Notes under the pieces: model-generated | What the model was told of the DNA's origin: nothing | Seen by the model: the letters and a program-made list of their open reading frames with translations, nothing else | Database searches by the model: none | Source of the DNA: Frigoribacterium faeni | GTDB lineage: Bacteria > Actinomycetota > Actinomycetes > Actinomycetales > Microbacteriaceae | Length of the DNA stretch: 64,000 bases | Direction: 5' to 3' | NCBI RefSeq assembly: GCF_007988805.1 | Contig: NZ_BJUV01000001.1 | Span: forward strand, 1-64,000 | Translations under genes and position numbers: made by a program | Shown: piece after piece, positions 1,240 to 61,930 of the stretch | Position numbering within the stretch: the first letter of the stretch is position 1 | How the letters are laid out: each line of letters opens with the position of its first letter

Positions 1240-1292
1240 GGCACCGCGCCTCCCGATCTCGACGGCGTGTCGAGCCGAGGAGGCGCGGTGCC
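1240..1292 (-). terminator. Hairpin after proS built from the GGAGGCGCG repeat word
   Basis: A perfect 14-bp inverted repeat: 1240-1253 pairs with 1279-1292, with a 25-base loop. It begins six bases past the proS stop codon, so it is positioned as the proS terminator. No T-run follows, as is common in high-G+C actinobacteria. Each arm contains the word GGAGGCGCG (one arm also has the longer GAGGAGGCGCG), the same word that builds the ispG terminator hairpin at 11201-11254. Confidence 0.75.
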
Positions 1293-1297
1293 GGCGG

Positions 1298-3061
1298 TCA
1301 GGAGGCCCGCGGCGCGGTCAGCGCGGCGACCGCCTCGGCGACGGGGAGGGGTGTCCGCTCCCCCGTGCGGCGGTCCCACAGCTCGACGACGCCCTCGCCC
1401 GCCGACCGGCCGACGACGACGATCCGGGGAACGCCGAGCAGCTCGGCGTCGCCGAACTTGACGCCGGGCGAGACCTTGGGGCGGTCGTCGTAGAGGACGT
1501 CGAGACGGTGCGCCTCGAGATCGGCGGTGAGCTTCTCGGCCACCTCGTAGACGACGGGGTCCTTGCCGGTGGCGACGACGTGCACGTCGAAGGGCGACAC
1601 GTTCTCGGGCCAGACGAGGCCCTTCTCGTCGTTGTTCGACTCGGCGATGACCGCGAGGATGCGCGTGACGCCGATGCCGTACGAGCCCATCGTCACCGTG
1701 ACCTGCTTGCCGTTCTCGTCGAGCACCTTGAGGCCGAGCGCCTCGGCGTACTTGCGCCCGAGCTGGAAGACGTGTCCGATCTCCATGCCGCGGGCGGTCT
1801 CGATCGGACCGGAGCCGTCGGGGGCGGGGTCGCCCTCGCGCACCTGCGCCGCCTCGATCACGGCGTCGGCGACGAAGTCGCGGCCGGCCACCAGACCGGT
1901 CACGTGAACTCCCCGGCGGTTGGCGCCGGTCACCCAGGCGGAGCCGTCGACGACACGGGGGTCGACGACGTAGCGGATGCCCGACTCGGACTCGAGCCCC
2001 AGCGCCTGCGGTCCGATGTAGCCCTTGACCAGGACGGGGTTCTGAGCGAAGTCGGCGTCGCCCGCCGCATCGACCTCGGCCGGCGCGAACGCGACCTCGA
2101 GTCGCTTCATGTCGACGTCGCGGTCGCCGGGCAGACCGACCACGACGAGCTCGCGGGTGCCGTCGAGGTGACTCAGGGCGACCACGACGTTCTTGAGGGT
2201 GTCGCCGGCCGTCCAGGCGCGTCCGTCGCCGCGCGCGTGCGCGTCGTTGAGCTGACCGACCAGCGTGTCGATCGTCGGGGTGTCGGCGGGCGCGAGCTCG
2301 ACGGCCGGGGGCTGCCCCTCGATCGGGATCGCCTCGGGCGCGATCGTCGTGAACGCCTCGACGTTGGCGGCGTAGCCGCCGGCCGAGCGCACGAAGGTGT
2401 CCTCTCCGACCGCGGTGGGGTGCAGGAACTCCTCGCTGCGCGAGCCGCCCATCGCCCCGGCGTCGGCCTTCACGATGACGTACTCGAGACCGAGCCGCGT
2501 GAAGATGCGCTCGTAGGCGTCGCGCTGCGCCTGATAGCTGGTGTCGAGACCGGCGTCGGACGCGTCGAACGAGTAGGCGTCCTTCATGGTGAACTCGCGC
2601 CCGCGCAGGAGTCCGGCACGGGGACGCGCCTCGTCGCGGTATTTGTCCTGGATCTGGAACAGCGTCAGGGGCAGGTCCTTGTACGACGAGTAGAGGTCCT
2701 TCACCAGCAGTGTGAAGGCCTCCTCGTGGGTCGGCGCCAGGAGGTAGTCGGCGCCCTTGCGGTCCTTCAGGCGGAACATGCCGTCGCCGTACTCGGTCCA
2801 CCGGCCCGTGGCCTCGTAGGGCTCGCGAGGCAGGAGCGCCGGGAAGTGCACCTCCTGCGCCCCGGCGGCGGTCATCTCGTCGCGGATCACGGCCTCGATC
2901 CTGGCCTTGACCCGCAGGCCGAGCGGCAGCCAGGCGAAGACGCCGGGTGCCTGGCGCCGGATGTAGCCCGCGCGCACGAGCAGACGGTGGCTGGTCACCT
3001 CCGCATCGGAGGGATCTTCACGGAGGGTTCGGACGAAGAGCTGGGAGAGACGCGTGGACAC
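1298..3061 (-). CDS. proS: Prolyl-tRNA synthetase
   Basis: Cytoplasmic class II aminoacyl-tRNA synthetase that charges tRNA-Pro. At 587 residues it is the bacterial type: the N-terminal catalytic core carries class II motifs, including the stretch with [12 protein letters not shown] (about 150-162). A YbaK-like editing insertion, which hydrolyses mischarged Ala-tRNA-Pro, occupies roughly 230-390. A C-terminal anticodon-binding domain (about 490-580) includes the VVGRSAGEG region. The GTG start gives the expected [16 protein letters not shown]-terminus. It lies upstream of nusA and is separated from it by a hairpin, so the two are probably distinct transcripts. Confidence 0.97.
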
Positions 3062-3083
3062 GCCCCTAGCTTATGGGCTGACC

Positions 3084-3902
3084 TCACCAGGGCTTGCCGT
3101 CGTACTCCCCCGGGTTCTGCTCGTAGTACCGCTGCCGGTCGTTCTCCTGCTGCTGCTCGCGCTGACTCCGGTCGCCCTGGTCGCGCAGCTGGTCGAGGGG
3201 ATCGGACGACCCTCCTCCGCTCTCGCCGTCGGCGCCTCCACCCTGGCCGGGCTCCCCGTCGTCGCCCGCCTGAGGATCGCCGCCCTCCTGCTCCTGCTGC
3301 GCCTCGTCCTGCTTGTCGCCGAGGCGGCCGTCGGCCTGCTCGAGCGGTTCGGACGTGTCGGGCCGGGCGGGGTCCTCGGGGGGCTGGAAGCAGCCCTCGG
3401 GCGCCTCGTCGACGGCCTGCCGCCCTTGGGCGAACAGCGCCTCGGCGTCCGCGTAGCGCAGCTCGAGCAGGGCCGCATCGCCCTGCGCCTCGATGGTGAG
3501 CACGAGATCGGTGCGGATCACGCACGAGATCGTCGGGTCGTCGGGCGCGAGCTCGAGCGCCGTCGCGAACTCGGTGCGCGCCACGTCGAGCACGCCGATC
3601 TGCGCGTAGCCCGTGCCGCGGTCGAAGTGGTGCACCCACGGCTCGATCACGTTGGCGATGCCGAGCGGCTCGCTGAGGCTCGTGCTGCGCTCGAACTCCC
3701 GATCGGCGTACGACCACTGCGTGAGAGCCGCGAAGACGGGCATGCTGAGCAGCTTCGCCGCCACGAGCAGCACGATCAGCACGACCGGCAGCGACCAGAG
3801 CAGGAGCCGCCGGCGAAGACGCCGGCGGTACGCCCCGATGGCCGCCTCGTCGTCGGCCGGCGTGCGGTCGTCGACGGGCGGGGGCGCGAGCACGGTCGTC
3901 AT
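3084..3902 (-). CDS. Membrane protein with TPR-like segment, BatC/BatE-like position
   Basis: A 272-residue protein of unassigned family. It has a short cytoplasmic N-terminus, an Arg-rich stretch (RRRLRRRLLL) and one strong membrane segment at about 33-55. A middle part (about 95-160) contains a tetratricopeptide-like helix pair around YAQIGVLDVARTEFATAL. The C-terminus is a low-complexity Glu/Gln/Gly/Asp-rich tail (about 185-272) ending in an acidic and aromatic segment. It overlaps the upstream vWA gene by 4 bp (ATGA) and ends the MoxR/DUF58/vWA operon, the place taken by BatC or BatE TPR proteins in Bacteroides-type Bat operons. That role is inferred from position. Confidence 0.75.
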   Translation of the reverse strand: MTTVLAPPPVDDRTPADDEAAIGAYRRRLRRRLLLWSLPVVLIVLLVAAKLLSMPVFAALTQWSYADREFERSTSLSEPLGIANVIEPWVHHFDRGTGYAQIGVLDVARTEFATALELAPDDPTISCVIRTDLVLTIEAQGDAALLELRYADAEALFAQGRQAVDEAPEGCFQPPEDPARPDTSEPLEQADGRLGDKQDEAQQEQEGGDPQAGDDGEPGQGGGADGESGGGSSDPLDQLRDQGDRSQREQQQENDRQRYYEQNPGEYDGKPW

Positions 3903-4969
3903 GGGCGGGCCCCTCTCTCGGTGCCGGGACCCGAGGAGGCGCGTGCCGGGTCGTCGCGCCGCCTCACCCGGATCTCCGCCAGCGCCCGGACCACCACGAA
4001 GACGTCGACGAGCACGAGGAGGAACAGCGGGATCGCGGGGATCCAGTACAGGTCCGTGACGCTCTCGGCCCGGCCGTCGGACGAGGTGACCCTGCCGTCG
4101 CGGGCGTCGGCGACCGCCGCGTCCACCGAGGTCCGCGCATCGCGGTGGACGTACGGGACGCCCAGCTGGTCGGCGATGCGCCGCAGGGCGTCCTCGTCGA
4201 TCGTCGAGATCGCGTCGGGCTCTCCCGGGAGCGAGCGGTCGACGATGTACTCGTCCGTCGAGTACCGGTCGCCGTAGCCGTCGAAGACCTTCATGCGGCC
4301 GCCCTCGCTCGTTCCGTAGCCGAACACGGCTCCGCCGTCGACGTCACCGGCGGACCCGGCGAAGGAGCCGGGCTCGGTGTCGGCGGTCTGCTCTCCGTCA
4401 CCCAGGTAGTACACGACGTTGGCCCGCCCGGGGTCGCTCTCGCGCGCCTCCTCCAGGCGGTCGGCGAGGAGATCGTCGGCCTCCGTGATCGAGCTCCCGC
4501 TCGAGTAGTAGGTGATCTCCTGGTTCATGACCTGCGCGGCGGTGACGACGGCGGCGCTGTCGTCGGTCAACGGCGTCCGCAGCACCGCGGAGCTGTCGAA
4601 CGAGATCAAGGAGAAGCGGGCACCGGCCAGCTGCTCGGTCACGGCGCCGATGTCGGCTCGCACCCCCTCGAGACGCGGGGCGCCGTCCCCCCAGTCCTCT
4701 GCGGCGATGCTCGAGGTCGTGTCGACGACGAAGAAGACGTTCAGATCGGCGGCCGACGCCGCCGACGAGCCGCCGGGCACGCCGGGCCGCACGGCGATCA
4801 CGAGCAGCAGCGCAGCGATCGCGGACCGGCGAGCCCAGGCGCGGACGAGGCGGCCGTTGCCTCGTTCGGCGACGACCCGCCAGACCGTGAACCCGAGGAG
4901 GAGGACGGCCGCGACCGCGAGCACGCCGACCGGGAGCACCGGGTCGAGGACGAGGGCGAGCGGGGTCAC
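3899..4969 (-). CDS. Membrane-anchored von Willebrand factor A domain protein (second of pair)
   Basis: A 356-residue vWA protein with two N-terminal membrane helices (about 12-33 and 47-64), a vWA domain (about 76-250) and a C-terminal helix (about 310-330) before a basic tail. The metal-ion site motif is altered: the DxSxS consensus reads DTTSS, which keeps Asp and the last Ser but has Thr in the middle position. It resembles BatB of Bat operons, where MoxR ATPases and vWA proteins cooperate in protein assembly or metal insertion. It overlaps both neighbours by 4 bp, so translation is coupled. The substrate is unknown. Confidence 0.85.
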   Translation of the reverse strand: MTPLALVLDPVLPVGVLAVAAVLLLGFTVWRVVAERGNGRLVRAWARRSAIAALLLVIAVRPGVPGGSSAASAADLNVFFVVDTTSSIAAEDWGDGAPRLEGVRADIGAVTEQLAGARFSLISFDSSAVLRTPLTDDSAAVVTAAQVMNQEITYYSSGSSITEADDLLADRLEEARESDPGRANVVYYLGDGEQTADTEPGSFAGSAGDVDGGAVFGYGTSEGGRMKVFDGYGDRYSTDEYIVDRSLPGEPDAISTIDEDALRRIADQLGVPYVHRDARTSVDAAVADARDGRVTSSDGRAESVTDLYWIPAIPLFLLVLVDVFVVVRALAEIRVRRRDDPARASSGPGTERGARP

Positions 4970-5967: not shown

Positions 5968-6437
5968 GAGCGCACCACCTCGCGTGCGGTCTCGACCGCT
6001 CGGCCCGGATCGCCGGGGTGGAGGCGCTGGAACGCCGGCGGATAGAACTGCTCGACGGCGCCCGTCAGGCGGGGAAGGTCGGACTCCCTCAGGTCCGCGA
6101 GGGTCATCACGTGCGTGTCGACCCCGTTCGTCTCGTGCACGAAGAAACGCAGGAGCAGGCTCAGTCGCGAGTGCACGGCGCGCTCGTCGAGGCGGCCGCT
6201 CGAGGAGGCGGCCGCGACCTCGTCGATGAGACCGAGGTAGCGGTCTCTCAGGGACGGGAGATCGACCATCCGCCCGCGCCGCGCCTCCCGGACGGCCTTC
6301 GGCAGTCGACGGGCGGTGAACCGGAGCACGAAGAGGTACCACGCGACGACCAGCGCCACGAGCAGCAGTCCGAGGACGAGCCACAGCACCCAGCCGGGGT
6401 ACTGGTAGGGGCCGAAGAAGCCGTTATCGTCGAGCAC
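5958..6437 (-). CDS. Small single-pass membrane protein of the MoxR/vWA operon
   Basis: A 159-residue protein with one N-terminal membrane helix (about 14-38) and a helical, Arg-rich cytoplasmic domain. I do not recognise a characterised family; small one-helix proteins of this kind commonly sit between DUF58 and vWA genes and may link them. The start is GTG; the gene overlaps DUF58 by 14 bp and the first vWA gene by 10 bp, so it is almost certainly co-translated with them. Confidence 0.78.
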   Translation of the reverse strand: MLDDNGFFGPYQYPGWVLWLVLGLLLVALVVAWYLFVLRFTARRLPKAVREARRGRMVDLPSLRDRYLGLIDEVAAASSSGRLDERAVHSRLSLLLRFFVHETNGVDTHVMTLADLRESDLPRLTGAVEQFYPPAFQRLHPGDPGRAVETAREVVRSWG

Positions 6438-7311
6438 GGCGGTGCTTCTCGATCACGGCGAACAGGGCGGGCACGACCTCGGCCCGGCTGGCGATCCGCT
6501 CGCTGCTGATGCCGAGCGAGCGCAGCTCGTGCTCGGTGGCGGTGCGGCGCGCCTCGTCGGCGCGGTCGAACTCCCGCCTCAGCAGGGGGCTCTCGCGCAG
6601 ATAGGCGGGCAGGCCCGCCATCTCGTGGACGTCGTAGACGTCGGAGGCGTGGCCTGTACGGGTCATCAGATCGGCGTCGCCGATCGTCAGCCAGACGATC
6701 TCGTGCTGCGCGCGCAGACGCCGGAGGAGGCGGTCGAGCCGCTCGTCGAGCGCGACGTCGTCGGTCACGACGAGGAGCATCGACCGCCGACGGATCCCCC
6801 GCGCGACCCAGCCGAGCACGCCTGCCAGGTCGCTCCGCGCCGCGTCGAGCGTCGCCCTCCGGTCGACCTGACGCAGGAGCATCTCGAGGTGGGCCTCGGT
6901 GCCGCCCGCCGGATGGGCCCGCGTGCCCGACTCGTCACCGGTGACGAGGGAGACCGTGTCGCCGTGGGTCGCGGCGATGTAGCCCAGCGCGCCCGCGGCC
7001 ATGATCGCGATGTCCTTCTTGGTCTCGCCGCTCGCGGCGGTCGCCGCCATGTTGCGACCCGTGTCGACGACCAGCACCAGATGCTGCCGACGACTCGCGA
7101 TGTAGCGCTTGACCAGGGGCTCGCCGTGCCGGGCGGTGGCCTTCCAGTCGATGTCCTTCACGTCGTCGCCCGCCACGTACGCCCGCAGGTCGTCGAAGTC
7201 GTGGCTGCGCCCGTGGTGGACCGACGCGTACCCGCCCTCGAGCAGGTCGAGGGTCCGTCGGTGGGCGCGGAGGGACATGGTCGTCCGGACCCGCAGCAGC
7301 AGGCTGGCCAT
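6424..7311 (-). CDS. DUF58 domain protein
   Basis: A 295-residue DUF58 protein. Family members are partners of MoxR ATPases and carry a vWA-like fold. The signature is seen as LRAYVAGDDVKDIDWKATAR (about 43-62), followed by the LVVDTGRNM and VVTDD segments. It has no membrane helix, unlike the second DUF58 protein of this window. I chose the ATG at 7311, 5 bp after the moxR stop; the frame extends much further upstream as an Arg/Pro-rich shadow of moxR. It overlaps the next gene by 14 bp. Confidence 0.9.
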   Translation of the reverse strand: MASLLLRVRTTMSLRAHRRTLDLLEGGYASVHHGRSHDFDDLRAYVAGDDVKDIDWKATARHGEPLVKRYIASRRQHLVLVVDTGRNMAATAASGETKKDIAIMAAGALGYIAATHGDTVSLVTGDESGTRAHPAGGTEAHLEMLLRQVDRRATLDAARSDLAGVLGWVARGIRRRSMLLVVTDDVALDERLDRLLRRLRAQHEIVWLTIGDADLMTRTGHASDVYDVHEMAGLPAYLRESPLLRREFDRADEARRTATEHELRSLGISSERIASRAEVVPALFAVIEKHRRARR

Positions 7312-8376: not shown

Positions 8377-9036
8377 TCACCGCCGGAGCGCCCTCCGCGC
8401 CAGGGTGTTCCCCAGGAACTGGACCAGCTGCACGAGCACGATGATGAGCAGGACGGCCGCCCAGGTCACCACGGGGTCGAACTGCCGGTAGCCGTACAGC
8501 AGGGCGAAGGCGCCGAGGCCGCCGCCTCCGACGTAGCCGGCGACGGCCGACATGTCGACGAGCGCCACGAAGACGAACGTGTAGCCGAGGATGAGCGGGC
8601 CGAGCGCCTCGGGCAGGATGATGCTCCGGATGATGCGGAACGGTCCGGCCCCGGCCGCTCGCGCGGCCTCGACGACCCCCGGCTGCACCGTGAGGAGGTT
8701 CTGCTCGACGATGCGGGAGATCGCGAACGACGCCGCGAGCGACAGGGTGAAGATGATGGCCGAGTTGCCGACCCCGCTGCCCACCGCGACCCGGGCCAGC
8801 GGTTGCGCCGCCGCGAGGAAGATGATGAACGGGATGGGCCGGAAGACGTTGACGACCACGTTCAGGACGCCGAAGACGGCGCGGTTGTCGAAGAGCGCGC
8901 CTCCTCGGGTGAGGTAGAGCGCGAGTCCGAGCAGGAGCCCGCCGAGACCGCCGAACAGCAGCGTCAGGGCGACGATGTAGACGGTCTCGTAGGCGGCCTG
9001 CCAGAGCAGGGGCTGGAGCTCGATGAGGGAGTCCAT
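8377..9036 (-). CDS. metI: Methionine ABC transporter permease
   Basis: Inner-membrane permease of a methionine-type importer. The 219-residue protein has five hydrophobic segments and the BPD permease EAA-like loop EAARAAGAGPFRIIRSIILPEAL (about 122-144), which docks onto the ATPase. Length matches MetI (about 217). It starts with ATG one base after the metN stop, giving tight coupling. It contains one copy of the GAGGAGGCGCG word on the complementary strand, at 8896-8906. Confidence 0.93.
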   Translation of the reverse strand: MDSLIELQPLLWQAAYETVYIVALTLLFGGLGGLLLGLALYLTRGGALFDNRAVFGVLNVVVNVFRPIPFIIFLAAAQPLARVAVGSGVGNSAIIFTLSLAASFAISRIVEQNLLTVQPGVVEAARAAGAGPFRIIRSIILPEALGPLILGYTFVFVALVDMSAVAGYVGGGGLGAFALLYGYRQFDPVVTWAAVLLIIVLVQLVQFLGNTLARRALRR

Positions 9037-11200: not shown

Positions 11201-11254
11201 GGACGTCGAGGAGGCGCGATGCAGGTCGTCCTGCACCGCGCCTCCTCGATGTCC
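11201..11254 (-). terminator. Long hairpin after ispG built from two GAGGAGGCGCG words
   Basis: 11201-11225 and 11230-11254 are 25-bp arms differing at two positions, with a TCGT loop. On one strand one of the two differences is a G-T wobble. It starts 16 bases after the ispG stop and so is placed as the ispG terminator, insulating the downstream metQNI operon. Both arms contain a full GAGGAGGCGCG word (11208-11218 and 11237-11247). Together with the hairpin after proS this is a repeated way of building terminators here. Confidence 0.85.
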
Positions 11255-11269: not shown

Positions 11270-12418
11270 TTAGACGGTGAGCACCTGGGGCGAGCCCGTC
11301 TCGCCGGGGGGCATCTCGGCCGCGAGGCGGTTGGCCTCGTCGATCAGGGTCTGGACGATCTCGGACTCGGGCACGGTCTTGATGACCTCGCCCTTGACGA
11401 AGATCTGGCCCTTGCCGTTGCCGGAGGCGACTCCGAGGTCGGCCTCACGGGCCTCGCCGGGGCCGTTCACCACGCACCCCATGACGGCGACGCGCAGCGG
11501 GACGGTCATGCCCTCGAGCCCGTCGGTGACGTCGTTGGCCAGCTTGTAGACGTCGACCTGGGCCCGACCGCAGCTGGGGCAGCTGACGATCTCGAGCTTG
11601 CGCTCGCGGAGGTTGAGCGACTGGAGGATCTGGAGACCGACCTTGACCTCCTGCGCCGGGGGTGCGCTGAGGCTCACCCGGATCGTGTCGCCGATGCCCT
11701 CGCCGAGCAGGATGCCGAACGCCGTGGCCGACTTGATCGTGCCCTGGAACTCGGGCCCCGCCTCGGTGACCCCGAGGTGCAGGGGCCAGTCGCCGCGTTC
11801 GGCGAGCTGGCGGTAAGCCTTCACCATGACGATGGGGTCGTTGTGCTTGACCGAGATCTTGAAGTCGTGGAAGTCGTGCTCCTCGAAGAGCGAGGCCTCC
11901 CAGACGGCGGACTCGACGAGCGCCTCGGGCGTCGCCTTGCCGTACTTCTGGAGGATGCTGGGCTCGAGCGAACCGGCGTTGACGCCGATGCGGATCGACA
12001 CGCCGGCGGCCTTCGCGGCGGCGGCGATCTTGCCGACCTGGTCGTCGAACTTGCGGATGTTGCCGGGGTTCACCCGCACGGCCGCGCAACCGGCGTCGAT
12101 CGCCTGGTAGACGTAGTTCGGCTGGAAGTGGATGTCGGCGATGACCGGGATCTGACTCTTCTTCGCGATGATCGGAAGGGCCTCGGCGTCGTCGCGACTC
12201 GGCACGGCGACCCGCACGATGTCGCATCCCGACGCGGTCAGCTCGGCGATCTGCTGGAGCGTCGCGTTGATGTTCGGCGTCGGCGTGGTGGTCATCGACT
12301 GGACGCTGACGGGGGCGTCGCCGCCCACGAGCACCTTGCCGACCTTGATCTGCCGCGTCTTGCGGCGCGGGGCGAGGACTTCGGGGACCTTCGGCATTCC
12401 GAGATTGACTGCTGGCAC
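11270..12418 (-). CDS. ispG: 4-hydroxy-3-methylbut-2-enyl-diphosphate synthase (GcpE)
   Basis: Cytoplasmic [4Fe-4S] enzyme of the MEP isoprenoid pathway that reductively opens 2C-methyl-D-erythritol 2,4-cyclodiphosphate to HMBPP. The 382-residue protein has the TIM-barrel N-terminal part ([24 protein letters not shown]) and the cluster-binding part with Cys in SCPSCGR and [11 protein letters not shown]. The GTG at 12418 gives the conserved [20 protein letters not shown] start; an ATG seven codons in is the alternative. It sits with rseP and dxr, the standard actinobacterial grouping, and is followed by a strong hairpin. Confidence 0.96.
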
Positions 12419-15056: not shown

Positions 15057-16070
15057 TCAGGCGACCGCGAGGATGTCGATGACGAACACCAGGGTGTCGG
15101 TCGGCTCGATGCCGGCGCCGGCCTCGCCCGCCTCGCCGTATCCGTCGGCAGGAGGCACGATCACGACCACCTGCGAACCGACCGTCTGCCCGATCATCGC
15201 CTGGGCGAAACCGGACACGACCTGATCGGTCGAGAAGGGAGTCAGCGTGCCCTTGCCCCAGCTCTCGTCGAAGACCTCGCCGGTGCGCCAGTTGGTGCCC
15301 TGGTACTGGACGGTGACGTTGGCCGGATCGGGCACGACGGCGCCGTCGCCCTTCTTCAGCACCTCGATCCGCAGGTCGGCGGGCGGGTCGTCGTCCGGGA
15401 CCGTCACCGTGGGACGGCCGTCGTCGGCGAGCTCGACCTCGGGGAAGCCGCTCTGCACGGGCTGATCGGCGCCCGTGGCCCGCGTCGGCACGATCGAGAA
15501 CGTGTCGACGACGATGACGGTCGCTGGATTGGGAGCGTCCGTGCCGGGCGAACCGGGCTGCATGTCGGCGGCCGAGGCGACCGTGACGGTGCGGGATCCC
15601 GCCTGAGCGCACGACAGCGCACCCTCGATGCCCGGCACGTAGAAGTCGCCGCTGATGGTCAGCTGCTCGCCTGCGGAGCCGGTGTACCCGGCCGTGCTCA
15701 GCTCGGCTCCCGTCTCGGCGTCGAAGACGGTGATCGCCACCTGCACGACGTCGCCCACCTCCGTGGTCGGTCCGTCGCCCGGCACGACCACGGTCTGCTG
15801 GGTCTCGGCGGCCGTGAGCGGCGCGGGGAGGCCGATGCTCGGCTTCTCCCCGAAGGCACCGGAGACGTCGACCGAGTCGGACTCGGCCCCGGACTCGAGA
15901 CAGGTGGTCGGCGCCGCCGCGGCCGTGCTGTCGTCCCCGGTCGGGGTCGGCTCCGAGCCGCCCGTGCACCCCGCCACGAGGGCGACCACGATCACGGGGA
16001 GCACGGCGACGGCCCACGGCCTCCGCCGGGTGGCCGGGGTGGTCGAGGAGGCGCGGAGCGGTCTGATCAC
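15057..16070 (-). CDS. Lipoprotein FKBP-type peptidyl-prolyl isomerase, two-domain
   Basis: Secreted, lipid-anchored prolyl isomerase that likely helps fold extracytoplasmic proteins. The 337-residue protein has a signal peptide with lipobox VALVAGC (Cys at about 35). A weakly FKBP-like domain (about 70-190) follows, then a canonical FKBP domain (about 230-337) that keeps [28 protein letters not shown] and FVIDIL, the active-site residues. The GTG start at 16070 has no clear Shine-Dalgarno sequence, so the true start is uncertain. A GAGGAGGCGCG copy (16045-16055) falls in the first codons. It is followed by, and paralogous to, the next FKBP gene. Confidence 0.88.
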
Positions 16071-19363: not shown

Positions 19364-21139
19364 TCAGGCGATGACGAAGAACTGCTCGCCGATCTCGACC
19401 CGGCAGCCACGGGCGACGCGCACCCGGGTCCCGGGTTCGAGACGCCGGGCCGGCTCGTCGCGGGGGCGGACGATCGTGCCGTTGCCGGACCAGCGGTCGC
19501 TGAGCCAGAGCTGCCCGTGCTCCTGTCCGAACTCGAGGTGGGTCTTCGAGACGGACTTGCCCGGGTCGACGATGCGGACGAGCTGGTCGAAGCGCTCTCC
19601 CGGCTGGGGCAGGGGGGCACGGCCGACGAGTCCGGTGCCGTCGACCGTCACGCTCTCGCCGGTGCTGAACTGCAGGACGAACTCGGATCCCATCGGGCCC
19701 CGACGGACGATCCTCGTCTCGTCGACGTCGTCGTCCGTGTCGACGGTGGCGGGTCGCAGCGGCTCCCGGGGTCGCCAGGCGGTCTCGGGCGCGGTCGGGC
19801 GTGCCTCCGGGGCCGGGGACTCCTCCACGGTCGGGGGCGCCTCCGCGGCCGGGGGAGCCGTCGGAGACGCGGACGAGGTCGGCGGCGGCGTCAGGTCTGC
19901 GGGTTCCGGGAACGCCACGGGGCGGTCCTCCCGGGACGGCTCCTCGACGTCGTCCCGCCGACGACGGTCACGACGGCTCCGGTCGCGACGGTCTCGGCCG
20001 CCACGGCCGCGGTCACGGTCGCGACGGTCGTCGTCGGTCCCCGTGCCGGCGGGCCCGGTCGCGTCGGCGACGGCCGCTCCGGGCTCGGCCGCGGCGATCG
20101 CCGGGTCGGCGGCGCTCTCGACCTCCGATGAGGCGGCAGGCGCTCCACCGCGGAGGATCGGGACGATAGGGCCCGTGAACGACAGGGCCACCGACTGGAC
20201 GACCGCACCGCAGACCCCGCAGAAGATGTCGTCCTCGTGGACGTCGGCACCGCACTGGGTGCAGCGCTCGACGCCGGCGGCCTGACCCGGCTCGACGAGG
20301 GGCACCGGGGCCGCGGCAGGCGTCGCGCTCGCCTGCGGCAGCACCGGCTCGACTCGCACGGTGTCGCCCGGTCGCGGAGTGGAGGCGTCGACTCCGGGTG
20401 TCGCCGCGTCGTGCGACGACCTCGCGGCGGGTTCCGTCGCGCTCGGGGCCGCTGGGGCGTCGTCGTCGGCCGACGGGGTCTCGGGCTGCGCGTCGGGGCG
20501 GGACGGGTCGAGGTCGGAGGCTCCGCCGACTCCTTCGTCGGGCGTGGCGCCCGCCTCGTCGGTCTCGGGGAGCGGCGTCGCGGACGCGACGGGTGTGAGG
20601 GAGGCCGTCCAGAGCGGAGCCGTCGACGGCCGAGGGCCGTCGTCGGATCGGGAGTCGGGCTCTCGCAGCGGGGCGGGCACGGGGGTGGGCACCGGGGTGG
20701 GGGCGACGGCCTGGGGTGGGGAGGACACGGGCTCGGGACGACCCGCGCCTCCTCGGGGCGCCGGCCCTCCCGGGCCGTCGGGCTCGGACGACGTCGCGGG
20801 CTGCGAGGACGTGGGCGCGACTGCGTGGGGGGCCGCGTCGGGGGTCTCGTCACGGCGCGCGGCGGGCTCGTCCGTCGGGGGCGCGTCCCGCCACGCGGGC
20901 GGGTCGAGCGGCGCGTCGGTCCGGTCGGCGGGCTCCCGGTCGCGGAGCCACCAGGGCTGCTCGCCCGACGACGCCGGGGTCGGTCGCTGCGGGCTCCACG
21001 CGGGCGGGCGTCCGTCGCGCTCGTCGGCGCCGCGGGGGCGATCGGGAGCCGACGTGTCGACTCCCGAGAGCGTGCGACCGCACTCGCCGCAGATCATCGC
21101 GCCGACGGGCAACGGGCTGGCACAGGTGGGGCACTGCAT
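19364..21139 (-). CDS. Zinc-ribbon and FHA-domain protein
   Basis: A 591-residue, probably cytoplasmic adaptor. It starts with a zinc ribbon (CPTC and CGEC, residues 3-21). A very long Pro/Thr/Ala/Asp-rich linker with predicted phosphorylatable Ser/Thr follows, then a second zinc ribbon (CTQCGADVHEDDIFCGVCG, about 295-315). Another charged linker with an Arg/Asp repeat (RDRDRGRGGRDRRDRSR) precedes the C-terminal FHA domain (about 480-591), with GRAPLPQP and SKTHLEFG. FHA domains bind phosphothreonine, so the PknB-like kinase of the cluster is the likely partner. I chose ATG 21139, which puts the ribbon at the start. It follows the transglutaminase-like gene by 13 bp. Confidence 0.88.
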   Translation of the reverse strand: MQCPTCASPLPVGAMICGECGRTLSGVDTSAPDRPRGADERDGRPPAWSPQRPTPASSGEQPWWLRDREPADRTDAPLDPPAWRDAPPTDEPAARRDETPDAAPHAVAPTSSQPATSSEPDGPGGPAPRGGAGRPEPVSSPPQAVAPTPVPTPVPAPLREPDSRSDDGPRPSTAPLWTASLTPVASATPLPETDEAGATPDEGVGGASDLDPSRPDAQPETPSADDDAPAAPSATEPAARSSHDAATPGVDASTPRPGDTVRVEPVLPQASATPAAAPVPLVEPGQAAGVERCTQCGADVHEDDIFCGVCGAVVQSVALSFTGPIVPILRGGAPAASSEVESAADPAIAAAEPGAAVADATGPAGTGTDDDRRDRDRGRGGRDRRDRSRRDRRRRDDVEEPSREDRPVAFPEPADLTPPPTSSASPTAPPAAEAPPTVEESPAPEARPTAPETAWRPREPLRPATVDTDDDVDETRIVRRGPMGSEFVLQFSTGESVTVDGTGLVGRAPLPQPGERFDQLVRIVDPGKSVSKTHLEFGQEHGQLWLSDRWSGNGTIVRPRDEPARRLEPGTRVRVARGCRVEIGEQFFVIA

Positions 21140-45709: not shown

Positions 45710-46600
45710 TCAGCGCACCGCCGTGGTGGCCCGGTCTCGTCCGGTGAGGTCGGTGGTGGTGGCGGGTGAACGCCAGCCGTCGGCCTCGAGGATGGACCGG
45801 ATCGCGCCTCCCTGGAGTTCGCCGTGCTCGATGACGAGGGTCCCGCCGGAGTGCAGGAGGCGACGTGCGGTGAGCGACAGCGCCCGGACCAGCACGAGGC
45901 CGTCGTCTCCACCGTAGAGCGCGAGCGCCGGATCGTGCAGACGCACCTCGGGATCGCGCGGGATCATGCCGAGCGGGACGTACGGCGGGTTCGACACGAC
46001 CACCGAGACCGTGCCGTCGAGCTCGGGCAGGGCGTCGCGCATGTCGCCCTCGACGAGCCGGACGTTCGCCGCTCCCACCGACGCGATGTTGCGCCGGGTC
46101 CAGACGGCCGCGTCCGGCGAGAGCTCGACCGCCACGACGGACGCGTGCGGCACCTCCGTCGCCAACGCGAGGGCGAGTGCTCCGCTGCCCGTGCCGAGAT
46201 CGACCGCCACCGGATGCGGGGTCGCCGTGGCACGGAGCGCGTCGATGGCGAGTTGGGCGACGCCCTCGGTCTCGGGACGCGGCACGAAGACGCCGGGGCC
46301 CACGTGCAGCTCGAGCGAGCGGAACGCGGCCGTGCCCGTGATGTGCTGGAGGGGCTCCCGGGAGGCGCGTCGCGCCACGGCCGCGGACATCGCGTCGACG
46401 ACATCACGGGCGAGGCCCGCCCGTGTCACGGCGCGGGCACGCAGGACGCCCCGCTGCAGCCCGGTCACGTGGCCGAGCAGCAGCTCGGCGTCGACCTCCG
46501 GGGTCGGGACGCCGGCATCGCGCAGCACCGCCGACGCAGCCGCGAGGGCGGCGTCGACGGTGCTCACGGCGCGGAACGCGTCGGCGACCGGGACGGTCAC
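45710..46600 (-). CDS. prmC: Release factor glutamine methyltransferase (HemK)
   Basis: Methylates the Gln of the GGQ motif of release factors RF1/RF2, using S-adenosylmethionine. The 296-residue protein has an N-terminal helical domain and a Rossmann methyltransferase domain with [14 protein letters not shown] (about 155) and the catalytic NPPY (about 205-208). It overlaps prfA by 4 bp (GTGA), so the enzyme and its substrate are co-translated. Confidence 0.96.
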
Positions 46601-53595: not shown

Positions 53596-54996
53596 TCACC
53601 CGAGGCCGGCGTCGCGCGCGAGCAGGTCGGCCTCGGTCTCGCCGCGGACGATCACGCGCGAGGCGCCGTCCCGCACGGCGACGACCGGAGGCCGGCCGAC
53701 GTGGTTGTAGTTGCTGGCCAGGCTCCAGCAGTAGGCGCCCGTCGCGGGCACGGCGAGGAGGTCGCCGGGCGACACGTCGCCCGGGAGGTAGTCGGCGAGG
53801 ACGACCAGGTCGCCGCTCTCGCAGTGCTTCCCGGCGACGCGCACGAGGGCCGGAGCAGCCGAGGAGGCGCGGCCGGCGATCGCGACCGAGTAGTCGGCCG
53901 CGTAGAGGGCCGTCCGCGCGTTGTCGCTCATGCCGCCGTCGACGCTGACGTAGCGACGCACGGCCTGCCCCGCGCCGTCGTCGAGCGACACGACGACGTC
54001 CTTGATCGTCCCGACCTCGTAGAGCGTCGTGCCCGACGGACCGATCACGGCGCGACCCGGCTCGACCGCCATCACCGGCACCGGGATGCCGAGCCGTCGG
54101 CACTCGGCCTCGACGATGTCGGCCAGGGCGGCCGCCAGCTCCCCGAGGGGCCTGGCGTCGTCGGCGCTCGTGTAGGCGATGCCGAAGCCGCCGCCGAGGT
54201 TCAGCTCGGGCACGTCTCCGTCGCGGAGGAGGTCGGCGTGCACGCCGAGGAGCCGCGCGGCCGCCTCGGCGAAGCCGTCCGAGCCGAAGATCTGCGAACC
54301 GATGTGCGAGTGCAGGCCGAGGAACCGCAGAGCCGCCCGGGCGCGGATCGACGCGACCACGTCGGGTGCGTCGGAGAGGGGCACGCCGAACTTCTGGTCC
54401 TCTCGAGCGGTCGCGAGGTACTCGTGCGTCGACGCGTGCACACCCGAGTTGACGCGCAGTCGGACGGCCTGCACGACGCCGTGCCGTTCGGCGGCCTCGG
54501 CGACGCGGACGACCTCGTCGGCGTTGTCGAGCACGATGACGCCGATGCCGGCCTCGACGGTGCGGTCGATCTCGGCGAGGGACTTGTTGTTGCCGTGGAA
54601 CCCCATGCGGGCGGGGGCGACGCCGGCGGCCCTGGCGACCGCGAACTCGCCGCCCGTGCAGATGTCGACCGACATGCCGGCCTCGCTGACCCAGCGAGCG
54701 ACCTCGGCCGACAGGAACGCCTTGGCCGCGTAGTACACGGAGACGGTGGTGCCGATGCGGCCGAACTCGCGGCCGAACGAGGCGACGGCGTCGGCCGCCC
54801 TCCCCCGGGCGTCGTCCTCGTCGACGACGTAGAGCGGAGTGCCGTAGGTCGCGGCGAGCTCGCCGGCCCGGACTCCGCCGACGACGATCTCGCCGGTGGC
54901 GTCGCGACGCGCCGATCGGGACCAGACGGACTCGTCGAGCGCGTTGGCGTCGGCCGGCTCACGGAGCCAGGCGGGGGCGAGGGGGTTCGGCGACAC
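53596..54996 (-). CDS. lysA: Diaminopimelate decarboxylase
   Basis: PLP-dependent last step of lysine synthesis, using meso-diaminopimelate, also a wall precursor. The 466-residue protein has the PLP Lys in YYAAKAFL (about 82-89), HSHIGSQ, the GGGFGIAY loop and ESGD (Cys-Glu-Ser-Gly-Asp) near the active site. The GTG at 54996 has GAGG upstream; upstream residues are Arg/Pro-rich shadow. One GAGGAGGCGCG word (53861-53871) is read here as part of RASSA. Confidence 0.96.
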
Positions 54997-55834: not shown

Positions 55835-55871
55835 CGGTCGCCCCCGGAGGACCGCGCCGTGCTGACGGCGA

Positions 55872-57536: not shown

Positions 57537-57618
57537 GGTGGACGATCTTACCGGCTGCGGCCTCCTCGGGACGCAGCCTCCGGTCGCCTCCCGAGGTCGC
57601 GTCGGTCAAGATGGGAGC

Positions 57619-58278
57619 ATGACGTCGAACCACCGCCGCGCCCGGAGCGGACTCCGTGCCGCCGCCCTCGTCGGACTCGCCCTCGCCTCCCTGTCGGCCT
57701 GCACGGCGACCGGCGCGACCTCGCCCACGACGCCTCCCTCGTCGGCGCCGGAAACGAGCGGCTCGGCGACCACCGCATCGCCGACCCCGACCGCGCCCGC
57801 TCTGGTGAGCACGCCGTTCGCCGCCGACTGCGCCGCGCTCGTCGATCCGGCGACCCTGGAGTCCAGCTTCCCCGGGCTCACGGTCGCGGACGCGCCCGAT
57901 CCGGGCACGGGAGTCGACGCCGCCGACGACGACGACGACGACGCCACCGCGACTCCGCTCCAGCAGGTCGCCGACGCCGACGGGACGCTGTGCGCCTGGA
58001 CCGATGCCGCGGGCGACGAGTTCACCCTCGGCGTCGCGCACTACGACGACGCGGGCCTCACCTCGCTCGCGAACGAGCTGGTGGCCTCGAGCAACTCCGT
58101 CCCGACCTACGGGGTCGAGGGGTACTTCCAGGTCGACGGCGGCACCGGCCGCGCGGACTTCTTCCCGCTGCCCTACTACGTCGTGCTCGAGTCGACGGCC
58201 TTCGTCGAGCCGGGCTCGGCCGAGCCGATGGCCGCCCAGGTGGTGGCGGCGCTCGACGCGACGGGCACGGCCGGCTGA
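57619..58278 (+). CDS. Secreted lipoprotein of unknown function
   Basis: A 219-residue lipoprotein: signal peptide with lipobox LSAC (Cys at about 28), a Thr/Ser/Pro-rich linker (about 30-65), then a small domain with DCAALVDP, CAWTDAAG and a six-Asp run (about 99-104). The two Cys spaced in the mature part suggest a disulphide. No characterised family recognised; actinobacteria encode many such lipoproteins of about 200 residues. ATG 57619 with GGGAG upstream. Confidence 0.75.
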   Translation: MTSNHRRARSGLRAAALVGLALASLSACTATGATSPTTPPSSAPETSGSATTASPTPTAPALVSTPFAADCAALVDPATLESSFPGLTVADAPDPGTGVDAADDDDDDATATPLQQVADADGTLCAWTDAAGDEFTLGVAHYDDAGLTSLANELVASSNSVPTYGVEGYFQVDGGTGRADFFPLPYYVVLESTAFVEPGSAEPMAAQVVAALDATGTAG

Positions 58279-58311
58279 CCCGCGCCTCCTCGGCTCCGGC
58301 TCGTCCGGCGG

Positions 58312-59070
58312 TCAGGCCGCGTGGGCCACGGCCCGGACCGACGCGACGGCGGCGCGCAGCCGTCCGAGCAGCGCCGGCAGCTGCGCACGGTCGGAACCGC
58401 GGTCCTCCGGGTGCCACTGCACGCCGGTGACGGGCGCCGAGCGGTGCTCCACGGCCTCCACCGTGCCGTCCGACGACCGGGCGACGACGCGCAGCCCGTC
58501 GCCGAGACGCCCGACGGCCTGGTGATGGGCGCTGCGCACCCGCGCGCCGACGCCCAGGGCGGCGGCCAGACCGCTGCCGGGCTCGATCGCGACGTCGTGG
58601 CCGACCATCGACCGATCGGCCGGGACGTCCGCGGCGCGGTGCAGGCCGTGCGCGTCGTCGAGGTGCTGCACGAGAGTCCCCCCGAGCGCCACGTTGATGA
58701 TCTGATGCCCGCGGCAGATGCCCAGCAGCGGGGTGCCGCGACCGATCGCCCGACGGACGAGCGCGATCTGCGCCGCATCGGCCACGACGTCGTGGCTCCC
58801 CTCGGCGACGTAGCCGGAGCCGCCGCCGTAGAACTCCGGGGCGATGTCCTCGCCGCCGAGCACGACGATCGCGTCGGCGGCGTCGCTCAGCCGGAGCAGG
58901 TCGTCGACGCCGAGGTCGCCGGCCGAGAGCCGGTCGGCCGCCCAGCCGCCCTCGCCCGCGTCGGCCAGCACCTGCGCCACCATCGTCTGCACGTACGCGT
59001 CGTAGCGCGGGGCGTGCGGGCGGCGGCGGGTCACCTCGACGACGGCGAGGCGGAGCGGGGCGCGGGACAT
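58312..59070 (-). CDS. Class I glutamine amidotransferase-like gamma-glutamyl hydrolase (peptidase C26)
   Basis: A 252-residue protein of the PuuD family, which in E. coli hydrolyses gamma-glutamyl-GABA in putrescine degradation. The catalytic Cys lies in LGICRGHQIINVALGG and the His and Glu in QWHPED. No other putrescine gene is nearby, so the substrate is uncertain. ATG start; 33 bp after the convergent lipoprotein gene, with one GAGGAGGCGCG word (58281-58291) in that gap. Confidence 0.87.
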   Translation of the reverse strand: MSRAPLRLAVVEVTRRRPHAPRYDAYVQTMVAQVLADAGEGGWAADRLSAGDLGVDDLLRLSDAADAIVVLGGEDIAPEFYGGGSGYVAEGSHDVVADAAQIALVRRAIGRGTPLLGICRGHQIINVALGGTLVQHLDDAHGLHRAADVPADRSMVGHDVAIEPGSGLAAALGVGARVRSAHHQAVGRLGDGLRVVARSSDGTVEAVEHRSAPVTGVQWHPEDRGSDRAQLPALLGRLRAAVASVRAVAHAA

Positions 59071-59143
59071 GACCCCATCGTCGTCACGTCCGCGCCGGGA
59101 CGCCAGCCGCGTTGCGTCACGTTACGACGCGCCGCGCCGCGCC

Positions 59144-59812
59144 TCAGGGCCAGAGGGAGGCGCGGGTCCAGCCGTCGCCGTCGCGGTCGTACCGCAGACG
59201 CACCTGGTCGCGCCCGCTCGTGGCCTGCCAGAACTCGATCGACGAGGGCTCGACCCGGTAGGCCGTCCAGTCGTCGGGCACGAAGTCGTCGTCCGCCGCG
59301 ATCCGCTCGCGCGCCGCTGCCAGGCTGCGCCGCGCCTCCTCGGGGTCGTCGACGACGGTGCTCTGCGGCACGGCGATCGCGCCCGCCCGCGAGTCGGGGT
59401 GGCGCGATGTGAAGTCGGCCTCGCTCGCGGCCCGCGGTCCGGCGACCGCGCGCCCGACGACCCGGATCTGTCGTCCGCGCTCCGACCAGAAGAAGGTCAG
59501 GGCCACGCGGGGATCGGCGCCGATCTGGCGACCCTTCGGGCTGAGCGACGACGAGGCGAACCAGAACGCGTCGTCGACGTCCTTGAGCAGCACGACGCGG
59601 GCGGCCGCCCCGCCTCCGGTGTCGACGGTCGAGAGCACCATCGCCTGCGGCTGGGCCACGCCGGCGTCGACCGCGTCGATCAGCCAGTCGACGACCAGGC
59701 TGCGCGGGTCGTCCGGCGACTCGTCGGCGACGAGGGCGGGCAGGTCGGGATGCGGGGGCTTGGCCCCGCGGAGACGGTCTCGCAGGGCGGGGGCGGGGGC
59801 GTCGGAGCTCAT
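59144..59812 (-). CDS. pdxH: Pyridoxamine 5'-phosphate oxidase-like flavoprotein
   Basis: Probable FMN-dependent oxidase making pyridoxal 5'-phosphate. The 222-residue protein has the PNPOx N-terminal FMN-binding region (MVLSTVD, RVVLLKDVDDAFWFASS, SPKGRQI, FFWSERGRQIRVVGR) and the C-terminal dimerisation block (WTAYRVEPSSIEFWQATSGRDQVRLRY). It is slightly divergent from E. coli PdxH. ATG start. It contains one full GAGGAGGCGCG word (59331-59341) and one core word. Confidence 0.88.
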   Translation of the reverse strand: MSSDAPAPALRDRLRGAKPPHPDLPALVADESPDDPRSLVVDWLIDAVDAGVAQPQAMVLSTVDTGGGAAARVVLLKDVDDAFWFASSSLSPKGRQIGADPRVALTFFWSERGRQIRVVGRAVAGPRAASEADFTSRHPDSRAGAIAVPQSTVVDDPEEARRSLAAARERIAADDDFVPDDWTAYRVEPSSIEFWQATSGRDQVRLRYDRDGDGWTRASLWP

Positions 59813-59905
59813 CCGCCCACCCTGCTCCCCCGACCCGAGCCGCGACCGGACGAGTCGCGCGTCGGAGGACCCGCCGAATCGCTGCTAGCCTTGTCGACGA
59901 CCCGG

Positions 59906-59977
59906 GCCCCCATAGCTCAGGGGATAGAGCACTGCCCTCCGGAGGCAGGGGCGAAGGTTCGAATCCTTCTGGGGGCA
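59906..59977 (+). tRNA. tRNA-Arg (anticodon CCG)
   Basis: A 72-base cloverleaf: acceptor GCCCCCA pairs with TGGGGGC, discriminator A, D arm GCTC/GAGC, anticodon arm CTGCC/GGCAG with loop CTCCGGA (anticodon CCG, Arg), T arm GAAGG/CCTTC with TTCGAAT. The 3' CCA is not encoded. It is upstream and convergent to a serine recombinase gene. Confidence 0.95.
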
Positions 59978-60040
59978 CCCTTCTCCTCGTCTCGACCGCG
60001 ATGGTCCTCCTCGTCGCAGGCGACGACGGCCGTCGTGCGA

Positions 60041-60640
60041 TCAGCCGAACGTCTGCGGCCGCGTGTCGTCCGCGCGGTCCTCGCCGCCGCCGGTCGAGTC
60101 GCGCTCCAGCTCCCGTCGGAGCAAGCGCTCACTGACCCCCAGGTGCCGGGCGATGTCGCGGACGGGCGCCTCGTCGGCCAGCATGTCGCGTGCGATGCGG
60201 AGTCGATGCCGGCTCACGGTCTGGCGCCGGGGCTGACGCGCATCGCGCTTCCTCCTCTCGGCCGCGAGACCGACCTCGGCCTCGACGGTCCGTTCGTGCG
60301 CGGCGAGCGCCGACGCGGCCCGGAAGAAGAACCTCCCCCACGGGCCGATCTCGTCGATCCCCTCGTCCAGGCTGCGGAGGGCGACACCGCGCTCGTCGAG
60401 GTCGGCCACGAGCGCGAGCAGGTCGGCGACCGTGCCTCCGAGGCGATCGAGCCGGGTGACGACGAAGACGTCGCCGTCGCGGAGCGAGGCCAGGGCGTCG
60501 GCCAGGAAGGGCCGCCGAGCCCGGAGCCCGGTCGCGCGGTCGATGTAGATGCGTTCGCAGGCGGCGGCTTCGAGTGCGGCCTGCTGCCGGTCGGGCGACA
60601 CGTCGTCGTCCGAGATCCGCGCGTAGCCCACGACGCTCAT
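60041..60640 (-). CDS. Serine recombinase (resolvase/invertase family)
   Basis: A 199-residue small serine recombinase. The N-terminal catalytic domain (about 1-125) has YARIS with the nucleophilic Ser10, and VVTRLDRLG and FFFRAASALAAHER; a helix-turn-helix region (about 145-185, VRDIARHLGVSERLL) recognises DNA. Such proteins invert or resolve DNA segments or act on mobile elements. It is immediately downstream of tRNA-Arg, but I find no duplicated tRNA 3' end, transposon ends or partners. ATG start with GGAGG upstream. Confidence 0.88.
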   Translation of the reverse strand: MSVVGYARISDDDVSPDRQQAALEAAACERIYIDRATGLRARRPFLADALASLRDGDVFVVTRLDRLGGTVADLLALVADLDERGVALRSLDEGIDEIGPWGRFFFRAASALAAHERTVEAEVGLAAERRKRDARQPRRQTVSRHRLRIARDMLADEAPVRDIARHLGVSERLLRRELERDSTGGGEDRADDTRPQTFG

Positions 60641-60667
60641 GGCCCGAACCCTCCGAGGGAGACGAAT

Positions 60668-60721
60668 GGCCCCGCCGAGGCGGGGCCGTGGTCTGGTCGC
60701 CTCACCCGCCGGGCGGGTGAG
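60668..60721 (-). terminator. Two adjacent hairpins after the 71-residue gene
   Basis: An 8-bp inverted repeat (60668-60675 with 60680-60687, loop CGAG) and a 10-bp one (60701-60710 with 60712-60721, nearly no loop) lie between the 71-residue gene stop and the recombinase start. They form a likely transcription terminator for the small gene and insulate the recombinase. Confidence 0.65.
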
Positions 60722-60730
60722 CCGCGTCGA

Positions 60731-60946
60731 TCAGCTGTACGTCAGGGCGATGACCGCGACGTCGAGGGTGCGGTAGGCCCCTTCGGCGCGCGTGGCCGAA
60801 CGGACGCGACCGCGCAGGACCTCGAAGCGGCCGTCGGTCTCGCGGACGAAGCCGATGACGCCGGCCGTGGGGGTCGAGACGCGGTGATAGCCCTCGCCCA
60901 GCGGGATGACCTCGGCGCGGGACGTCTTCTCGAGAACAGCTCCCAT
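60731..60946 (-). CDS. Conserved-looking 71-residue small protein
   Basis: A 71-residue basic, non-membrane protein starting MGAVLEKTSRAEVIPLGEGY and ending in a beta-strand-rich part. I do not recognise a family. Support for expression is good: a strong AGGAGG lies 6-8 bases before the ATG and two hairpins follow the stop. It lies between the recombinase and an EamA exporter. Longer frames upstream are shadows. Confidence 0.75.
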   Translation of the reverse strand: MGAVLEKTSRAEVIPLGEGYHRVSTPTAGVIGFVRETDGRFEVLRGRVRSATRAEGAYRTLDVAVIALTYS

Positions 60947-61045
60947 GGTGTTCCTCCTCTTGCTGTCGCCGGACCGGCACTGGTCCGACGGATGAAGAGT
61001 ACGCGTGGACACCCCGCGATCGGGGTACAGATCGCCCAGGAACCA

Positions 61046-61930
61046 TCACACGGGTGGTGGCTCGGTCGGTCGGGCGATCCGGCGCCGCGCCGTGGCCGTC
61101 ACGCCGACGCTCGCCGCGGTCACGAACGTCAGCGCGACCAGTTCGCGCAGGCCCAGCCGCTCCCCGAGCACGACCAGCCCTGCGAGCGCCGCGACCGCCG
61201 GCCCGAGGCTCGACAGCACGCCGAACACGCGCGTCGGCAGGCGGCGGAGCGCCACCATCTCGAGGGCGTAGGGAACGGCCGAGGTCGCCAGGGCGACGAT
61301 CGCGAAGACGCCGAGGAGGCGCGGGTCGGCCGAGACCGCGGCCGTCGCGTCCGCCGCGCCGAAGGGGACGACCACCACGGCGGCGACGAGCATCGAGACG
61401 GCGAGTCCGGACAGGGAGTCCCGGCGCCGTCCGAGGCTCGCGTTGGCGACGATGTAGCCGGCCCAGAAGGCCCCCGCACCGAGGGCCAGCACGACTCCGA
61501 TCGCCGGGATCGTCCCGCTCGAGTCGGAGCCGAGCACCACCACGCCGGCGAGCGCGAGCACCGCCCAGCCCGCGTCGAGCCATCTCCGGGTCTGCGCGAG
61601 CGCGACGACGAGGGGGCCGAGGAACTCCAGGGTGACCGCGACGCCGAGCGGGACGACGTCGATGGCGAGGTAGATGAGGGAGTTCATGCCGGCGAGCGCG
61701 AGGCCGAGGAGGACGACGCCGAGCCAGGTGCGGGCGTCCCAGCCCCGCACCCGGGGCCGGAACACGACGAGGAGGATGACGGCTCCGAAGCCGAGTCGCA
61801 GGGCCGCGGCCCCCATCGGGCCGAGCGCCTCGAAGTGCGTCCGGGCCAGGGCGGCGCCGAACTGGACGGAGAAGATGGCGGCGACCGCGAGGACGGGCGC
61901 GGGGACGAGCTCGAGCGACGGACGTCTCAC
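61046..61930 (-). CDS. EamA/DMT-family exporter (RhtA-like)
   Basis: A 294-residue inner-membrane transporter with about ten helices in two EamA repeats; blocks like LEFLGPLVVAL (about 103-113) and SLGPAVAALAGLVVLGERL (about 245) are typical of the threonine/homoserine-exporter branch. I chose GTG 61930 with GAGGAG upstream; upstream frames are shadows. One GAGGAGGCGCG word (61313-61323) sits inside as RLLG. Substrate is unproven. Confidence 0.88.
   Translation of the reverse strand: MRRPSLELVPAPVLAVAAIFSVQFGAALARTHFEALGPMGAAALRLGFGAVILLVVFRPRVRGWDARTWLGVVLLGLALAGMNSLIYLAIDVVPLGVAVTLEFLGPLVVALAQTRRWLDAGWAVLALAGVVVLGSDSSGTIPAIGVVLALGAGAFWAGYIVANASLGRRRDSLSGLAVSMLVAAVVVVPFGAADATAAVSADPRLLGVFAIVALATSAVPYALEMVALRRLPTRVFGVLSSLGPAVAALAGLVVLGERLGLRELVALTFVTAASVGVTATARRRIARPTEPPPV

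Follow-up and report, generated by a model that had tools for sequence, protein, structure and literature searches.

A genus-wide word in Frigoribacterium

A short word, GAGGAGGCGCG, recurs along a 64-kb stretch of the genome of Frigoribacterium faeni (the window; the genome itself, G000, comprises 3,377,980 bases in 83 contigs). This 11-base word is maintained across the genus Frigoribacterium and, among the genomes sampled, is specific to it. We consider that it probably serves as a DNA uptake sequence (DUS), a putative genus-wide label of self DNA, because its anatomy matches that of the uptake sequences of Neisseriaceae and Pasteurellaceae. An uptake signal had been named in the original prediction made from the window, and this reading gained support from the genome-wide count, the relatives, sequence shuffling, conservation, opposed pairs of the word, competence genes and a species dialect, from which we infer the preferred uptake itself.

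Abundance in the window and the genome

Twelve copies of GAGGAGGCGCG lie in the window, six per strand, where dinucleotide shuffles predict 0.49 (0 of 100 shuffles reached 12) and Markov models of order 1–5 of the window predict 0.33–1.34. The 11 positions originally listed were all correct; a twelfth copy (4443, minus strand) had been overlooked, so that the copies do lie on both strands as claimed, with a split of six and six rather than six and five. The core GGAGGCGCG was found 24 times against 6.57 expected, 12 of these being inside full words. The other 12 had been counted as 11, the copy at 6280 having been missed and that at 45803 misplaced by one base. According to our own gene calls, four of the 12 full words are intergenic and eight genic, compared with a mean of 1.42 and a maximum of 5 genic copies in 300 synonymous shuffles of the called genes. 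Throughout G000, the word occurs 835 times, evenly by strand (407/428), and the reversed word 8 times; the genome-wide count and the strand balance, both proposed as checks, thus came out in its favour.

Further statistics were obtained from a 461-kb sample of G000, consisting of the window and the stretches L001–L020 (14% of the genome), which contains 78 full words against 3.4 expected from an order-3 Markov model. For every word length between 9 and 14, the top two words by enrichment were parts of CCGAGGAGGCGCGGGTC. One-base variants at positions 3–10 of the word are present in 0–5 copies each, approximately as expected, and positions 1, 2 and 11 permit some change, with 129 one-mismatch sites overall. 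The core is GGAGGCGCG(G) and the extended consensus approximately CCGAGGAGGCGCGGKKC, with weaker information in C and C ahead of GAGG, in the G directly after the core and in a C as the thirteenth base, counted from the start of GGAGGCGCG.

Restriction to the genus and a species dialect

Frigoribacterium belongs to the Microbacteriaceae. In a search of 60 genomes of relatives, all 16 congeners (G000 included) carry 315–879 copies of GAGGAGGCGCG, with the top counts in G003 (879), G000 (835) and G002 (809), as against 0–43 copies in 21 genomes of other genera of the family and at most 36 in 23 genomes of the order outside the family. Among 299 genomes sampled from the family, AGGAGGCGCGG reaches 383–879 copies in seven congeners and no more than 78 in the 292 others (the maximum being in G092, which has 27 of the reversed word). 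In a phylum sample of 396 genomes with G000 as the sole congener, it has 879 copies there and at most 59 in the 395 others. Examination of relatives had been suggested as a check, and it found the word in every congener with little or none across the family and phylum samples. The same picture appears at single loci of 15–21 kb, where eight Frigoribacterium hold 6–12 copies of AGGAGGCGC and 0–6 full words, two Frondihabitans loci are without copies, and three distant loci have 0–1; the pdxH-type protein of the window is 79% identical to that of Frigoribacterium sp. CFBP 13712.

One species uses a dialect. The A before GGAGG is present in 26% of cases in G006, compared with 58–78% in six other species sampled, and GGAGTCGCGG has a density of 183 per Mb in G006 versus 0–12 in the others. 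Over whole genomes, GGAGTCGCGG occurs 373 times in G006 and 16–39 times in the 15 other congeners, the reversed control occurring 25–57 times in all 16.

We rejected the possibility that the word is common to other genera. The 43 copies in G023 look like parts of tandem intergenic repeats, because five of five copies in 80 kb are intergenic and the repeat units include the word. In five other genera (80 kb each), no word of a like profile was seen among the few top words tested, G034 having been searched without the gene test and G017 with only 3 genes called, which renders the gene test uninformative there. In viral contigs, at least 120 stretches carry a 14-base form of the word, with a single match in 79 of 80 among the matches listed.

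Conservation as DNA

We aligned 241 kb of G000 (C1, positions 1-241000) with G003 and G002, to which it is 83% and 82% identical over the aligned parts. Coding copies of the word were unchanged in 17 of 23 gap-free cases in G003 and 17 of 24 in G002, besides 4 and 3 copies that fell in gaps or unaligned parts. Among coding 11-mers matched for GC content, the unchanged share was 15.1% and 13.4%. Sites that encode the same peptides without the word were unchanged in only 4 of 50 (G003) and 2 of 55 (G002) cases, compared, under a looser filter, with 17 of 25 and 17 of 26 for the word (P 1e-7 and 3e-9); these controls may count one place repeatedly, and G002 and G003 are not mutually independent. 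Because the coding copies outlast both the 11-mer and the same-peptide controls, the DNA word, more than its peptide, is preserved. Intergenic copies remained unchanged in 10 of 15 (G003) and 8 of 12 (G002) cases.

An alignment of the 16 congeners around pdxH points to the origin of individual copies. The core at 59156 and the full words at 59331 and 61313 fall in gap-free columns wherever aligned and differ by substitutions, and at the intergenic site 58281 the alignment is gapped and uninformative.

Placement relative to genes

Our simple gene caller predicted 421 genes in the 461-kb sample (90% coding). Of its 78 copies, 51 are genic and 27 intergenic or across a gene end, i.e., 0.123 versus 0.594 per kb, a 4.8-fold higher density between genes. 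Gaps between convergent genes hold 9 copies over 8.6 kb, those between tandem genes 14 over 22.4 kb and those between divergent genes 2 over 9.3 kb, with 2 further copies at a stretch edge; convergent and divergent gaps differ at P = 0.03. Synonymous shuffling of the called genes gave 8.66 copies (standard deviation 2.35, maximum 16, n = 100) against the real 51, which upholds the earlier claim that codon use does not explain the copies. The claimed independence of reading frame stood in part: all six frame and orientation classes are occupied, and 45 of the 51 coding copies fall into four of them. The two classes that need AGG AGG or CCT CCT hold 3 copies each, these codons being rare (2.4 and 1.8 per thousand). 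Coding copies are antisense in 31 cases and sense in 20.

Where two neighbouring copies lie within 150 bases of each other, they are opposed in six pairs, 22–85 bases apart, and parallel in none; one of the six pairs falls within coding sequence. Allowing one mismatch, an opposed partner within 70 bases accompanies 30 of 48 intergenic copies of GGAGGCGCG and 26 of 138 coding ones (P 5e-8). Five hand-picked hairpins have predicted folding energies between -40 and -46 kcal/mol, with z from -5.1 to -9.8. Pairing at terminators had been put forward for examination; the opposed pairs favour gene ends, where they are candidate terminators.

As a side observation in the same 461 kb, GATGCCGA/TCGGCATC shows a genic enrichment confined to one orientation, with 10 sense, 131 antisense and 2 intergenic copies, a profile resembling a codon-context effect.

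Competence genes and two prophages within dprA

Competence genes, which were to be looked for, are present in G000. Its ComEC gene adjoins one for a ComEA that has SLBB and helix-hairpin-helix domains, and the genome also contains a Tad locus and, in two pieces, dprA. The Tad locus encodes one T2SSE ATPase, a T2SSF protein, a small pilin-like protein with a DUF4244 domain and a TadE/G-like protein. The stretch TAEY...AAVGFAG of its small protein resembles the Flp sequence of Micrococcus luteus, in which Flp/Tad pili are required for transformation, according to the available excerpts (PMC6370729). A PilB-type ATPase (E ~1e-139), for which the name PilB is our own reading, is encoded together with another ATPase beside it in 13 of the 16 congeners. 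If the word is active in uptake, it works without this second, PilB-type pilus.

The gene dprA is present in all 16 congeners, two of which, G000 and G010, have it split into two pieces. In G000, the pieces (C1:170167-170430 and C1:188500-188922) flank a prophage of ~18.2 kb (C1:170348-188500, L006/L007), and in G010 the corresponding element measures ~18.5 kb (C1:604222-622738, L258/L259). Judged against G003 and G005, the insertion site in dprA is identical. The integrases of both elements fall in PHROG 95 and match a DNA invertase, i.e., they are of the serine kind; the element of G000 also encodes terminase, portal, head and tape-measure proteins. With integrases 45% and terminases 83% identical, the two prophages are related but distinct. 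Together, they contain no full word and neither of two 9-base cores in 36.7 kb (G+C 60–61%), where ~7 full words would be expected at host densities. Mobile elements that disrupt comK, comYC, comFA and comM have been read as a counter-measure to transformation (excerpts of PMC4774983), and prophages at transformation-inhibiting sites have been described in pneumococcus (excerpts of PMC12637031); the accessible portions of these two papers do not mention dprA as an insertion site. By analogy, the prophages splitting dprA suggest that transformation has been a past force in Frigoribacterium.

Interpretation as a DNA uptake sequence

A 2013 paper on Neisserial DUS described the need for short uptake words as confined to Neisseria and Pasteurellaceae (PMC3630211), and our search of the open-licence literature, preprints excluded, found no report of uptake words in Actinobacteria. 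The DUS of Neisseriaceae resemble the Frigoribacterium word in their many genic and intergenic copies, their inverted pairs linked to terminators and their dialects between related species (PMC3630211). They differ in phylum and word; moreover, no ComP is known in Frigoribacterium, and three of its species are without the PilB-type ATPase. The uptake signal sequences (USS) of Pasteurellaceae are likewise over-represented, and the part of the source at hand states that their reverse complement is commoner in the reading frames of the genomes named (PMC2346458), comparable to the antisense preponderance reported here; unlike USS, our word, which again differs in sequence and phylum, showed no bias to gene termini. 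Micrococcus luteus, an actinobacterium, combines comEA and comEC with a Flp/Tad pilus and is reported to have no comG cluster (PMC6370729), and G000 has the same ComEA, ComEC and Tad complement; no uptake word is mentioned for M. luteus in the excerpts of that paper. With DUS and USS, the word shares over-representation on both strands, sharing within a genus with a dialect, intergenic enrichment with inverted pairs, and competence genes.

A putative receptor at the cell surface, belonging to the competence machinery (Tad/Flp pilus, ComEA, ComEC), would prefer DNA bearing the word, and such DNA would be imported and recombined more often. Alleles carrying the word would then spread by copying through the population more readily than alleles that had lost it. 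This drive would build and retain the word where the cost to peptide or transcript is low, as at gene ends, in terminator hairpins and in permissive codons.

Several points weigh against the uptake reading. The literature search found no report of natural transformation or uptake in Frigoribacterium, and the strain from which the window comes has an interrupted dprA; it may therefore not transform at present. Tad ATPases were matched in 60 of the 60 relatives (congeners included) and ComEA in 57, many of them without the word, and thus the machinery alone does not predict it. In G000, G002 and G003, the only T2SSE protein above the cut-off is the Tad one; since the PilB-type ATPase is missing in these three species with the highest counts, a ComP-like type IVa pilin is unlikely to be the general receptor. 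No receptor was pinned down, and no search aimed at ComP was made. The spacing of the copies, suggested for inspection, is no more even than random (coefficient of variation 1.12 versus 0.95), and within genes no clear bias to the ends was found (sense copies by quintile 2, 4, 5, 2 and 7; antisense 7, 4, 7, 8 and 5). The absence of the word from the two prophages shows only foreignness, which is expected under any reading. Accessory stretches contain 1 word in 34.3 kb, including a 12.5-kb tail that perhaps lies only beyond the fetched relatives; excluding this tail, 1 word in 21.7 kb compares with 44 in 206.7 kb (P ~0.06). Without the G010 prophage, this test is only marginal.

Alternatively, the word could be bound inside the cell by a chromosome protein, such as a nucleoid organiser or a repair or methylation factor, and be kept by selection at many sites. 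Any word bound throughout a genome would give a like excess, strand balance and conservation, but the preference for gene ends, the opposed pairs, the G006 dialect and the restriction to one genus are less expected, and we regard this explanation as unlikely. A possible precedent is HIP1, the iterated palindromic word of cyanobacteria, which is lineage-specific and has a very high copy number. The Frigoribacterium word shares these two traits; unlike HIP1, it is non-palindromic and occurs as opposed pairs at gene ends. A Chi- or KOPS-like signal for recombination or segregation (KOPS, FtsK-orienting polar sequence), read one way by RecBCD/AdnAB-like or FtsK-like motors, would suit the density and precision of the word. 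Such signals are strand-biased, to ~75% for Chi of Escherichia coli. C1, which seemingly falls within one replichore because GGGGGAGT is distributed 0/19 along it, carries GAGGAGGCGCG in 25/20 copies; a 75% bias is rejected (P 0.0035), the counts in C2 (9/6), C3 (7/11) and the whole genome are balanced or nearly so, and we consider this alternative largely refuted and very improbable. The same balance in C1 disfavours the repair hotspot, as a polar repair signal, that had been raised in the original prediction.

The absence of parallel pairs and the stability of the five chosen hairpins would also be compatible with a terminator hairpin or a family of repetitive extragenic palindromic (REP) repeats spread by copying. 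We judge this very improbable, as 51 of 78 copies are coding, 112 of 138 coding cores are partnerless, and the three coding sites aligned differ by substitutions, not by inserted blocks; the palindrome spread by insertion that marks REP elements was not seen, just as the strand bias of Chi and KOPS was not. Finally, the high G+C content and the locally common codons used for EEAR, RASS and RLL favour an explanation by composition, by codon preference or by GGAGG motifs for ribosome binding. This explanation is refuted by the synonymous shuffles, the 8 copies of the reversed word and the low counts in other genera, and the codon-driven-looking GATGCCGA differs in profile; we assign it a negligible probability.

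The word GGGGGAGT used above is itself strand-polar, being 0/19 in C1. In C2 (L010-L017), 14 plus copies up to position 90501 give way to 7 minus copies that start at 92019, and the strand switches at gcgctgataatgcacattatgtcagct near C2:90870 (L014:10869-10895), which we take to resemble dif. GGGGGAGT is a candidate FtsK-orienting polar sequence.

Returning to uptake, a fuller scenario is possible, which we hold only tentatively: sequence-specific uptake of self DNA may have arisen independently in Actinomycetota, within a single genus, through Tad and not through a ComP-bearing type IVa pilus, with species dialects, and label-free phages may repeatedly have entered dprA to switch off transformation. 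If true, this would be a third independent case, found in a high-G+C Gram-positive phylum, and self-labelling of DNA would not be bound to an outer membrane or to ComP. It would also provide a comparative test of word spread by uptake bias and a pointer to natural transformation in Frigoribacterium, where no report was found.

Individual copies in the window

Both hairpins of word pairs proposed originally are predicted to be stable. The intergenic copy at 1277..1287 (+) pairs with GGAGGCGCG at 1245-1253 (-) in a hairpin at 1240..1292 (-) with a fold of -46.4 kcal/mol (z -7.32). Downstream of ispG (11270-12397, -), the intergenic copies at 11208..11218 (+) and 11237..11247 (-) are the two arms of a terminator-like hairpin at 11203..11252 (-), with a fold of -43.9 kcal/mol (z -9.81). 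Also intergenic is the copy at 58281..58291 (-), located between convergent genes, 2 bases past the stop of the gene at 57619-58278.

Within genes, the gene at 3899-4969 contains two copies, one antisense at 3933..3943 (+), encoding RASS, and one sense at 4443..4453 (-), encoding EEAR. RASS is also encoded by the antisense copy at 16045..16055 (+) in the gene at 15057-16070. Sense copies are found at 8896..8906 (-) in the gene at 8377-9036 and at 20744..20754 (-) in that at 19364-21139, and an antisense copy at 53861..53871 (+) in lysA (53596-54996). The pdxH-type gene (59144-59812) holds a full word at 59331..59341 (-), which is complete in G000, G002 and G003 and substituted in the 13 other congeners. 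At its 3' end, the 9-base core at 59156..59164 (+) is exact in 15 of 16 aligned congeners (its own included) and altered in G009; protein constraint may help to preserve it. The copy at 61313..61323 (+) is antisense in an rhtA-like gene (61046-61930); this site has the full word in G000, G002 and G003, a C before AGGAGGCGCGG in six congeners and AGGAGGCTCGG in four, three being unaligned.

Other repeated words

A second word, GCAGGAGTTGCCGAC, was noticed within the genus. Its form AGGAGTTGCCG occurs 10 times in G003 (L031-L034) and 8 times in G008 (L035-L038), in 80 kb each, with 16 of the 18 copies intergenic and often clustered; a search of parts of three G000 contigs found none. In G016 (L047-L050), CGGATGCCGC is present 29 times in 80 kb against 1.3 expected, in both orientations and with no intergenic bias. 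The intergenic repeats GGGTTTCGAGAC and GCGGGTTGAGGAG of G023 (L043-L046) are partly tandem and mostly lie between convergent genes. The viral contig L149 from IMG/VR, which is perhaps a prophage with host flank, carries two opposed words 23 bases apart (L149:1039-1075) and, over its 9.5 kb, AGGAGGCGC in 4 copies.

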